This document shows positions 2,943 to 41,122 of a stretch of 41,122 nt of DNA, piece by piece (the stretch's first letter is position 1; each line of letters opens with the position of its first letter). Below the pieces are notes generated by a model that did no database searches, was not told the origin of the DNA, and saw only the letters and a program-made list of their open reading frames with translations. Both the position numbers and the translations under genes were made by a program. This DNA comes from Candidatus Peribacteria bacterium (GTDB taxonomy: Bacteria > Patescibacteriota > Gracilibacteria > Peribacterales > Peribacteraceae): the NCBI GenBank assembly GCA_943357915.1, contig CALRGQ010000007.1, positions 1 to 41,122 of the forward strand, in the 5' to 3' direction.

Positions 2943-4175
2943 GTGAACTTCGATATTTCATCAATTCGTCGGCAATTTCCGATCCTCCAAAAAAAAGTGG
3001 GAGGGCAAGTGCTTTGCTATCTAGATAGCGCTGCTACAAGCCAAAAGCCGCAACCCGTCATCGATGCAATTTCCGGTTTTTATACGACGAAGAATGCCAA
3101 CGTGAACCGTGGTGTCCATGCACTCTCAGAAGAAGCAACTGTCTCCCATGACCAAGCACGCAACACTGTACGTAAGTTTCTGAATGCACGACATTCACAT
3201 GAAATAATATTCACCAAAAATGCAACCGAGGCCATCAATCTTGTTGCTCATATTTTCGGTGACACTCTAAAACCTGGCGACCATATCGCATGTTCAGTAC
3301 TGGAACACCACAGCAATATCATCCCATGGATGCAGTGTGCGGAAAGAAAGGGGTTAGAACTGGACTGGTTACCGATCACAAAAGAAGGATATTTAGACCT
3401 GCGCGAAACAGAAAAAATACTGGCAAAAGGTAAGACAAAACTTGTGGCCATCAGCGGACTCAGTAACGTAGTAGGCACGCTGCAGCCCATTACAGAGATG
3501 ACTGCATTAGCACATAAATACGGCGCGGTTATTCTGGTGGATGCATCACAACTCGCAGCACATGAACCGATCGATGTGCAAAAACTTGATTGTGATTTTT
3601 TGGCTTTCTCAGGCCATAAAATTTATGGACCGACTGGCATCGGAATTTTATACGGCAAGACCGCTCTTTTAGAAAAAATGCCGCCTTTTCTGGGCGGTGG
3701 TGACATGATCCAGAGCGTTACGAACGCTGGCTTTACGTGTGCCGAACTTCCACGAAAATTTGAAGCCGGCACACTCGCAGCTGCAGACGCTGCTGGCCTG
3801 GCTGCGGCGATAGGTTGGATGGAAAAAGTAGGAATAGAAAACATACAAAAACATGAAGAGTCACTCATTGCTCATACGCTCACAGAACTGCAAACAATCA
3901 AAGGCCTGAAAATTCTTGGCCCCACCGATCCACAAAAAAGAACCGGATGCGTAAGCTTCACGATCGACGGCATCCATCCTCATGACCTCACAGATATTCT
4001 CGGAAAAGAAGGCATCTGCTTGCGTGCCGGACATCACTGTACCCAGCCGCTGCACGCATTTTTAGGCATCACGGCTTCTACTCGCCTATCGGTAGCCGTT
4101 TATAACACCATCGAGGAAGTCGACCAGACTATTGCGTCAATTCTTAGGGCGCAAAAACTATTACAAAAAAAATAA
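2943..4175 (+). CDS. sufS: Cysteine desulfurase SufS (group II)
   Basis: This is a PLP-dependent cysteine desulfurase that takes sulfur from cysteine as a persulfide for Fe-S cluster assembly. The 410 residues match the usual SufS length. The PLP lysine is K226 in SGHKIYGPTG, and the catalytic cysteine is C366 in RAGHHCTQPLH, the group II signature. The N-terminal YLDSAATSQKP and RGVHALSEEAT segments are also typical. The start is GTG at 2943; a TATACT box at 2928-2933 sits 9 nt upstream, so the message is probably leaderless or nearly so. The gene is followed after 39 nt by a SufU/IscU-like scaffold on the same strand, forming a sulfur donor plus scaffold pair. SufB and SufC are not in the window, and SufD lies about 35 kb away. 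Confidence 0.95.
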   Translation: MNFDISSIRRQFPILQKKVGGQVLCYLDSAATSQKPQPVIDAISGFYTTKNANVNRGVHALSEEATVSHDQARNTVRKFLNARHSHEIIFTKNATEAINLVAHIFGDTLKPGDHIACSVLEHHSNIIPWMQCAERKGLELDWLPITKEGYLDLRETEKILAKGKTKLVAISGLSNVVGTLQPITEMTALAHKYGAVILVDASQLAAHEPIDVQKLDCDFLAFSGHKIYGPTGIGILYGKTALLEKMPPFLGGGDMIQSVTNAGFTCAELPRKFEAGTLAAADAAGLAAAIGWMEKVGIENIQKHEESLIAHTLTELQTIKGLKILGPTDPQKRTGCVSFTIDGIHPHDLTDILGKEGICLRAGHHCTQPLHAFLGITASTRLSVAVYNTIEEVDQTIASILRAQKLLQKK

Positions 4176-36939: not shown

Positions 36940-37167
36940 GCCCCAGCTGTGAGTAAGCCTATGTATTCGTAATGGCTTGTTTGTCTCCCTTCCAAAAGGA
37001 GCCTTACGCCTCACACGCCAAAAGCTCCTTCACAGCATCGTGTAGTAGAGAAAAATTAGGTCCAATTTATTTCCTTTGGAATTAAAACAAAGGGTGTACC
37101 ACCTTTGGAAAAAAACGGTATTTAGAAGCCATGTATCGATCTAAACAGTCGATACACAAAATCTTCT
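36940..37167 (+). other. 16S rRNA leader with hairpins
   Basis: No gene is seen here. CAAAGG/CCTTTG (37088-37107 region) and a perfect 8-bp hairpin TGTATCGA/TCGATACA (37132-37156) lie before the mature 5' end. CCTTTGGAA occurs twice, about 40 bp apart. These are likely processing or antitermination structures. Confidence 0.5.
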
Positions 37168-38636
<1,469 letters not shown>

Positions 38637-38835
38637 CCAGGGAGTTTTACCTGGAACTATGCTCTGGGGTGTATATCGCACTTTCATTAGTGCGAAACCA
38701 ACATAGTCAACACTTTGAGTAGGGAACACCCTCTTCGGTCCTCAGAACTCAGTGCCTTTCATAGGACACTGGGTTCTGCGGGGCCAAGAGCCCTATACGT
38801 GAATCGTCCGGCCTAGCCTTAGGGCGAAGTCGGAC
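38637..38835 (+). ncRNA. Highly structured segment downstream of 16S (spacer or unknown RNA)
   Basis: Successive helices are visible: CCAGG/CCTGG (38637-38654); ACTATG/CATAGT (38656-38707) enclosing TCGCACT/AGTGCGA (38676-38695); AGGG/CCCT around 38721-38732; GAACTCAGTG/CACTGGGTTC (38745-38776, one G-U); GGGC/GCCC around 38781-38793; GTCCG/CGGAC (38806-38835) enclosing CCTA/TAGG. No tRNA, 5S or 23S signature is present. It could be the transcribed spacer or a separate structured RNA. The next 117 bases up to the following gene show nothing further. Confidence 0.5.
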
Positions 38836-38952
38836 AAACCTAACACTTTCTCTACTACACGATGGGGTGAATTTTGGCGTGCCTAATTTCTGGACAACAG
38901 CGTTCTCTTGACTTATAAACCATATCCCGCACAGTTCTCCAACGTTAACATT

Positions 38953-40305: not shown

Positions 40306-40719
40306 ATGATTGAATCCCAAGGAACATCATCTGTAATCACTGATGAAAGCAGCAGGTTTGCACCTGTTGTTAAACCTGAAAAAATATACCCTCCGACTCA
40401 TCATGATAAAGAAACCTTTAAGGCGGACAGAGAAATAATTGTAACAAATGTACGAGAAGAAATTAACGAATGCAGGCGTCTTGAAGATGAAGGATATGTG
40501 GAATTTGGATATGGTCTACATGCACATGCTCAAGCTGCTAGGGACTTTAGTCATGATAATGCTATTTATCATGAGACAGATGTTACAACGTGTTCAGTAC
40601 GTCTACAGGCAGATGATTCTGCACTTGTGAGACTGCAAGTCTTTTACTGCCTAAAAGGATCAGTCCCTATCGATAGGCAAGCTATTTTAAGAGAATACAG
40701 TGAACTAGCCACGGGCTAA
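40306..40719 (+). CDS. Hypothetical protein, 3' end replaced by IS end
   Basis: A 137-residue soluble protein with a disordered N-terminus (about 1-45, with KPEKIYPPTHHDKET), a helix (DREIIVTNVREEINECRRLE) and a segment rich in His and Ala (YGLHAHAQAARDFSHDNAIY). No family is recognised. The last four codons and the stop (LATG-stop) lie inside the terminal hairpin of the adjacent IS200/IS605 element, so the original C-terminus was probably longer. TATAAA at 40289-40294 lies 11 nt before the ATG. The 170 bp before the gene hold nothing else. Confidence 0.55.
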   Translation: MIESQGTSSVITDESSRFAPVVKPEKIYPPTHHDKETFKADREIIVTNVREEINECRRLEDEGYVEFGYGLHAHAQAARDFSHDNAIYHETDVTTCSVRLQADDSALVRLQVFYCLKGSVPIDRQAILREYSELATG

Positions 40720-40731
40720 AGCCGCGTGGCT
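40707..40731. mobile_element. Terminal hairpin (right end) of IS200/IS605 element
   Basis: Outer stem AGCCACG/CGTGGCT and inner stem GGCT/AGCC with an AA loop make the imperfect palindrome typical of IS200/IS605 ends. It contains the stop codons of both the transposase (minus, 40716-40718) and the hypothetical gene (plus, 40717-40719). The element extends past the right edge of the window. Confidence 0.8.
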
Positions 40732-41122
40732 TCCCCTCCACCCTCCATCTCGCTGCACTCATCCTCGATATCTTTCTTTCCTTGTTGTTCAACATAGTTC
40801 TTGATCGTTTCGTGGTTGATCTCTCCTACCGTTGCCACAAAGTAGCCCACTGCCCACAAGACTGGTTTCCAGTAGAACGGGCGGAGCTCTTTGGCAAACT
40901 CCTTACGGATAATTTTTGCAGTTCTTCCCTTTAGTATTTGCACGACATATGGAAGAGGTTGGACAGGGGGAATCGTAAGGTAAAGATGCACATGGTCTTC
41001 TTCCATCCCAATCCCTATAACGCGGACATTGAGTTCTTTACATATGCCCTTAAAGAGCATCTCCAAACGCTTTTGGATAGGAAGACTCAAGGCACATCGT
41101 CTGTACTTGGTGATCCACACGA
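40716..41122 (-). CDS. tnpA: IS200/IS605 family transposase TnpA, 5' end outside window
   Basis: A Y1 (HUH) single-strand transposase. At least 134 residues are present, with the start beyond base 41122. WITKYRRCAL is the family N-terminal strand. The HUH motif is DHVHLYLTIP, and the catalytic tyrosine is in the C-terminal helix HETIKNYVEQQ. LRPFYWKPVLWAVGYFVATV is also typical. The frame is intact to its TAG stop in the end hairpin, so the element may be active. No tnpB is seen on this side. Confidence 0.93.
   Translation of the reverse strand, partial: VWITKYRRCALSLPIQKRLEMLFKGICKELNVRVIGIGMEEDHVHLYLTIPPVQPLPYVVQILKGRTAKIIRKEFAKELRPFYWKPVLWAVGYFVATVGEINHETIKNYVEQQGKKDIEDECSEMEGGGEATRL

Follow-up and report, generated by a model that had tools for sequence, protein, structure and literature searches.

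A conserved pseudoknotted trailer fold downstream of the solitary 16S rRNA gene of Peribacteraceae

A solitary 16S rRNA gene and its flanking helix

The window analyzed here (41,122 nucleotides) is one entire contig (G000:C7) from the 1.39 Mb assembly of a Candidatus Peribacteria bacterium of the family Peribacteraceae. A full-length 16S rRNA gene is located on its forward strand at 37168–38636 (Rfam RF00177, 1461 bits, model positions 1–1533). The first-pass annotation of this DNA had described the gene as having no tRNA, 23S, or 5S after it, and this was borne out in the window: a tRNA search detected none near the 16S gene, and an Rfam search of the window yielded neither 23S nor 5S nor any further family 3' of it. 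The same annotation had allowed that a 23S gene might follow in the true assembly, and none does, even in relatives with long or single contigs.

In the source genome, 23S is on another contig, and 5S lies 114 bases behind it. Separation of 16S from 23S is general in the family, with ~170–190 kb between the two where one contig carries both (assemblies G052, G071, G066, G006, and G020; for G052, which is a single contig, the distance was counted across the record ends, with the record taken as circular). An ordinary 16S–23S internal transcribed spacer was excluded as the identity of the downstream segment because no 23S, often accompanied by tRNA, is downstream in the unit. A tRNA or tmRNA remnant was likewise rejected after the tRNA search.

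Several further features were observed in these genomes. The 23S gene of the source genome (L044:937–5302) is 4366 bases in length, with a group I intron at 3928–4173 and other insertions; it has its own flanking stem (GAACAGCAC/GUGCUGUUC), and 5S is close behind. An ORF running to the end of the window (40716–41120, minus strand) resembles, by eye, a TnpA transposase of the IS200/IS605 family. One assembly (G016, contigs C11 and C14; L012 and L038) has two 16S genes with differing tails and differing trailers, which may be due to a second species in the bin or to a true second copy. A contig filed as Kiritimatiellales (JAIPIN010000001.1, L101) bears a Peribacteraceae 16S end and trailer, and is probably misbinned.

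The 16S gene and the trailer that follows it are enclosed by a 25–35 bp helix between leader and trailer, termed P. In the window, the 5' arm of P (37014–37060, comprising 37014–37023, 37029–37053, and 37056–37060) is complementary to the 3' arm (38839–38881, comprising 38839–38843, 38847–38871, and 38872–38881), both on the forward strand. The distance between the P arm and 16S on the 5' side is 55–246 nt in the family. For the 28 genomes holding both ends of 16S, the arms paired at -42.3 kcal/mol with their own partners vs. -32.0 kcal/mol when mismatched (z -9.4), and compensatory changes are evident in GUGUAACAGAG/CUCUGUUACAC and GUGCAGGUGAGAUA/UAUCUCACUUGCAC as compared with the common GUGUAGUAGAG/CUCUACUACAC. 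Judging from sequence, this layout is the classical 16S processing-stem arrangement. Because the segment following 16S lies inside this conserved and covarying helix, we assign it as the 3' transcribed spacer of the solitary 16S precursor.

The leader contains a boxA-like motif (TTTCCTTTGGAA; 37070–37081, forward strand), which we take to be boxA; a TTTCYTTTGAA-like motif is found in the leaders of relatives. In L007 and L012, a second and partial copy of the P arm (GTCTRYTACACRATG) occurs downstream of the P arm, after a GC-rich palindrome, and REP-like palindromes recur at the 16S flanks of relatives.

Fold of the trailer and its conservation

Dense structure had been claimed directly 3' of the 16S gene, and the segment indeed folds considerably better than expected from its composition: the energy of 38637–38840 is -89.2 kcal/mol vs. 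-60.0 ± 4.4 kcal/mol for 200 dinucleotide shuffles, none of which was as good (z -6.67). The helices claimed previously, including nested stems, are present. The structured unit is wider than had been noted, extending from inside the 16S tail (38630, through pairing of the anti-SD) to the P arm near 38881. It also includes a pseudoknot, which is invisible to nested folding and was found only by comparison of relatives.

The trailer elements are all on the forward strand and begin with two short helices. In S1, CUCC of the anti-SD tail, within 16S (38630–38633), pairs with its covarying partner GGAG in the trailer (38641–38644). In S2, recognized from sequence, CCAGG (38637–38641) pairs with CCUGG (38650–38654); the partner strand of S2 is weak or missing in some relatives. 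CCAG and S1 are able to form a small H-type pseudoknot across the 16S 3' boundary.

Hairpin H1 consists of stem A (ACUAUG at 38656–38661, paired with 38702–38707), a CUC internal loop (38662–38664) that is conserved among relatives, and stem E (UGG at 38665–38667, paired with 38698–38700), with both stems identified by covariation. Its 3' side (38698–38707) is made up of E' (CCA), one unpaired A, and A' (CAUAGU). An extra hairpin within the H1 loop (UCGCAC/GUGCGA, 38676–38695), identified by folding and comparison, is variable among relatives. A UUUG linker (38714–38717), which is AUUG in 57 of 60 relatives, leads to hairpin H2. Stem C of H2 (GUAGGG at 38719–38724, paired with CCCUAU at 38791–38796) is identified by folding and covariation, and encloses the stem D hairpin (38731–38790), which is formed by CUCUU/AAGAG and a 12-bp arm pair (38743–38754/38767–38778). 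Helix B, a kissing or pseudoknot helix supported by permutation, pairs GGUGU of the H1 loop (38668–38672) with ACACC (38726–38730). A small hairpin identified by folding and comparison (UCCGGC/GUCGGA, 38807–38834) is located between H2 and the P stem, and both same-genus relatives have a similar one.

Downstream regions were gathered by searching 40 relatives with 16S plus flanks. A pattern consisting of the 16S tail and the first trailer bases (TGGAANNYYTCCTTACCAGGGA) occurs in 60 of the 74 family genomes and also in named GTDB genomes, and the reverse-read control form of this pattern was never found. Hits to the pattern in two Spirochaetaceae and two Ruminococcus records were discarded, as no 16S lay around them. 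The set left once unrelated hits and short pieces had been filtered out comprised 60 distinct trailers.

These 60 trailers have a common order of elements: 16S tail, S1/S2, H1, AUUG linker, H2, and 3' P arm. H1 is composed of stem A, a 3-by-1 internal loop (CUC/N), and stem E, and H2 of stems C and D; in helix B, 5–9 bp (6–7 bp in 38 of the 51 relatives with a clear parse) are formed by the H1 loop and the strand that links C to D. The element invariably follows the 16S 3' end and precedes the P arm. Trailer length, including the P arm, varies from 112 to 270 nt due to insertion of whole hairpins, which occurs at three sites (the S2–A interval, the H1 loop, and stem D). Stem D is variable in length and absent altogether in 4 of the 51 clearly parsed relatives, in which B is a plain loop-loop kissing helix. 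The internal loop of H1 is CUC in 48 of the 60 trailers, CGC in 8, CAA in 3, and CAC in 1.

Covariation in the 16S downstream regions of relatives had been proposed as a check on the structure, and it is strong in the helices. Duplex energies were calculated for the 5' strand region of each helix with the 3' strand region of its own genome or of other genomes. In permutations that ignore phylogeny, own-partner z values for the 60 trailers were -13.2 (A), -10.5 (E), -12.9 (B), -6.7 (C), and -6.5 (S1), vs. -0.8 for control regions; for 31 dissimilar trailers, these values were -10.2, -7.2, -10.3, -6.6, and -4.8, respectively, vs. -1.2 for control regions. All five helices beat every permutation in both sets.

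A further count for stems A and E was made on 27 sequences that MAFFT had aligned without structural information. Paired cells constituted 88.9% of the total vs. 20–47% when the strands were slid, and there were 42 double-change cells vs. 15.1 ± 3.3 in shuffles, a count that likewise takes no account of phylogeny. For stem A, 97.8% of cells are paired, and four of its five pairs have double changes. Helix B was tested through matched and mismatched partners, as MAFFT set it one base out of register in places. The structural conclusion is drawn from the concordance of several helices, among them B, which entered into no alignment or model.

A covariance model built from just the A/E part matches 58 of the 74 family genomes and none of the 279 other genomes of the class, and we therefore consider the fold to be a family trait. 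Matches to the model and the pattern together cover 62 of the 74 family genomes, and in several of the family genomes without a match, 16S is absent or partial in the assembly. The model found no copies away from 16S in the family or the class. The trailer, a conserved structured RNA, has no match in Rfam 15 at the gathering threshold or at permissive E-values. The first-pass annotation had suggested either a processed spacer or an unrecognized structured RNA, and there is evidence for both; we infer the processing from the presence of the processing stem and of an RNase III gene.

Other families of the class, such as those of L018, L020, and L039, have trailers with a different and simpler conserved layout (TAAGGAGCTTAGC...GTTAGGTCG) and the same CTTCTCT arm motif.

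The 16S tail and maturation enzymes

The 16S tail of the family is GGAACAYYUCCUUA instead of the usual GGAUCACCUCCUUA. Neither the CCUCC anti-SD core nor the GAUCA site of Era is intact in the 3' tail of the source 16S (GGAAUAUCUCCUUA, 38623–38636), and of 60 family tails, just 2 retain CCUCC. The evidence for S1 consists of a single covarying column with two states, in which the second Y of the tail forms a U-A pair in 36 trailers, a C-G pair in 23, and a mismatch in 1 (n=60). As an anti-SD partner is found right after the tail in other families of the class as well (e.g., CCUCU/AGAGG and GCCU/AGGC), S1 probably predates the H1/H2 fold.

In the usual 16S tail, GAUCA together with CCUCC forms the binding site for Era, and most CPR bacteria have no Era according to a review (PMC10582724). 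Era was absent from the family, in which only Der-like double-GTPase matches were detected. YbeY was absent from the source genome and all 74 family genomes, as compared with its presence in 178 of the 279 other genomes of the class. An RNase III gene (243.6 bits, over cut-off) and a PNPase gene are present in the source genome, and RNase R was not found there. Loss of YbeY and Era was considered as an explanation for the fold and fits only partly: YbeY is gone family-wide, but both proteins have also been lost in other families of the class without the fold, and thus the fold is not required merely by their loss.

Proposed function and relation to known systems

We favor, with reasonable confidence, a model in which the trailer of the solitary 16S precursor acts in cis in 16S maturation, probably by shielding the 3' end and guiding nucleases. 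Leader and trailer, which would be transcribed with 16S as one precursor, pair into P, which closes the precursor and is the expected substrate of RNase III. Within P, the trailer folds into two hairpins joined by a loop-loop pseudoknot of 5–9 bp, and its first bases pair with the anti-SD tail of 16S, which would hide the anti-SD from mRNA. The kissing hairpins would constitute a compact block between the 16S tail and the P stem, which would shield the unfinished 3' end. Once RNase III has opened the precursor, the fold could block a 3'-5' exonuclease (PNPase being present and RNase R not found), or alternatively could present the 16S boundary to an endonuclease for the last cut. The trailer fold would presumably be discarded after maturation. 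Under this model, RNA ends are expected inside P close to CUUCUCUAC, with one at 38636 arising later.

Other explanations were weighed against this one. REP-like palindromes occur near the 16S flanks of some relatives, which might suggest chance folding of a GC-rich spacer or debris of palindromic repeats, but such an origin is vanishingly improbable given the z of -6.67 against shuffles, and is already refuted by covariation, with compensatory changes seen in all helices. The helix order and connectivity are those described for the pistol ribozyme (PMC6154101), and this identical topology led us to consider a self-cleaving ribozyme that cuts the precursor without protein, a reading with which the lack of YbeY in the family would agree. 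However, no Rfam ribozyme matched even at E≤5 among 17 trailers, and the 3' junction, at which the pistol G-U cut site is located, is empty in 38 of 47 trailers, in which no unpaired nt separates D' from C'. In addition, 4 of 51 trailers lack stem D, and the possible cleavage site has no conserved residues. We find a ribozyme of this type very unlikely, and due to the empty junction, the dispensability of D, and the absence of an Rfam match, the pistol identity was rejected.

The conserved CUC internal loop and AUUG linker are relevant to two further possibilities. Their conservation is not explained by pairing, and might indicate a site bound by a ribosomal protein or assembly factor, through which maturation of 16S would be coupled to assembly or placed under feedback control. 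The partner in this case is a putative one, and the covariance model is matched at 16S alone; we judge such a site to be unlikely. RNAs that have partners also typically show compact folds with a pseudoknot and conserved unpaired motifs, as CUC and AUUG are here. Once excised by RNase III, the trailer might persist as a small RNA and act in trans, for instance in regulating ribosome synthesis, with the precursor being only its carrier. Against this, no copy exists apart from 16S in the family or class, the first strand pairs with the 16S tail, and the flanks form a processing stem, and we regard a function in trans as quite unlikely.

An extension of the proposed cis-acting role in maturation is that the kissing-hairpin domain took over the job of YbeY and Era in Peribacteraceae, possibly as a nuclease-resistant or self-processing element. 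We hold this extension to be doubtful. If true, the domain would be a new class of cis-acting ribosomal precursor RNA, and would protect the anti-SD tail and set the 3' end of 16S in place of the two proteins.

With the exception of the RNase III stem, the spacers of bacterial 16S are generally regarded as filler with a short lifetime. The entire family Peribacteraceae keeps a pseudoknotted domain that lies between the end of 16S and the RNase III stem. To our knowledge, no comparable pseudoknotted fold exists in other bacterial 16S trailers, and a search of open-access full text revealed neither such a fold nor a published description of this one. The trailer provides a new RNA family absent from Rfam, for which a search model is supplied, and its host bacteria, having no YbeY, Era, or standard anti-SD, offer a testable case of how the 16S 3' end is finished with few proteins.

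Precursors of 16S in which downstream sequence pairs with the anti-SD are common in Bacillus and relatives (CCUCCUUUCUAAGGA). Similarly, the first trailer bases in Peribacteraceae pair with the anti-SD, but unlike the Bacillus type, S1 overlaps the CCAG/CUGG helix, possibly as a pseudoknot, and the anti-SD and its trailer partner have drifted in step. Loss of CCUCC is shared with SD-scarce bacteria, among which Candidatus Peribacter riflensis is described, in the passages devoted to it, as having 7% SD and no CCUCC (PMC10783764); unlike the case presented here, those passages contain no trailer structure.

In the pistol ribozyme, the loop of the P1 hairpin pairs over ~6 bp with the junction between P2 and P3 (PMC6154101). 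The same order of helices (A/E, B, A/E', C, B', D, D', C') holds for the pistol or pseudoknot hammerhead fold (PMC6154101, PMC11300833) and the trailer, in which helix B, at 5–9 bp, corresponds to the pistol pseudoknot of ~6 bp. The G-U site within a P2–P3 junction of conserved length has no counterpart in the trailer, which, unlike pistol, shows no sign of a catalytic core and has a dispensable stem D. The closest setting is that of unlinked 16S precursors, such as that of Helicobacter pylori (mentioned in PMC7761764). As in the RNase III processing stem of such precursors, a long helix surrounds a solitary 16S, 23S and 5S are elsewhere, and an RNase III gene is present. Since pre-rRNA spacers with structure are already known in general, we regard the trailer as a novel RNA structure occupying a known niche; as far as we know unlike other unlinked 16S precursors, that of Peribacteraceae bears, within the 112–270 nt extending from the 16S end through the stem arm, a conserved pseudoknotted fold.
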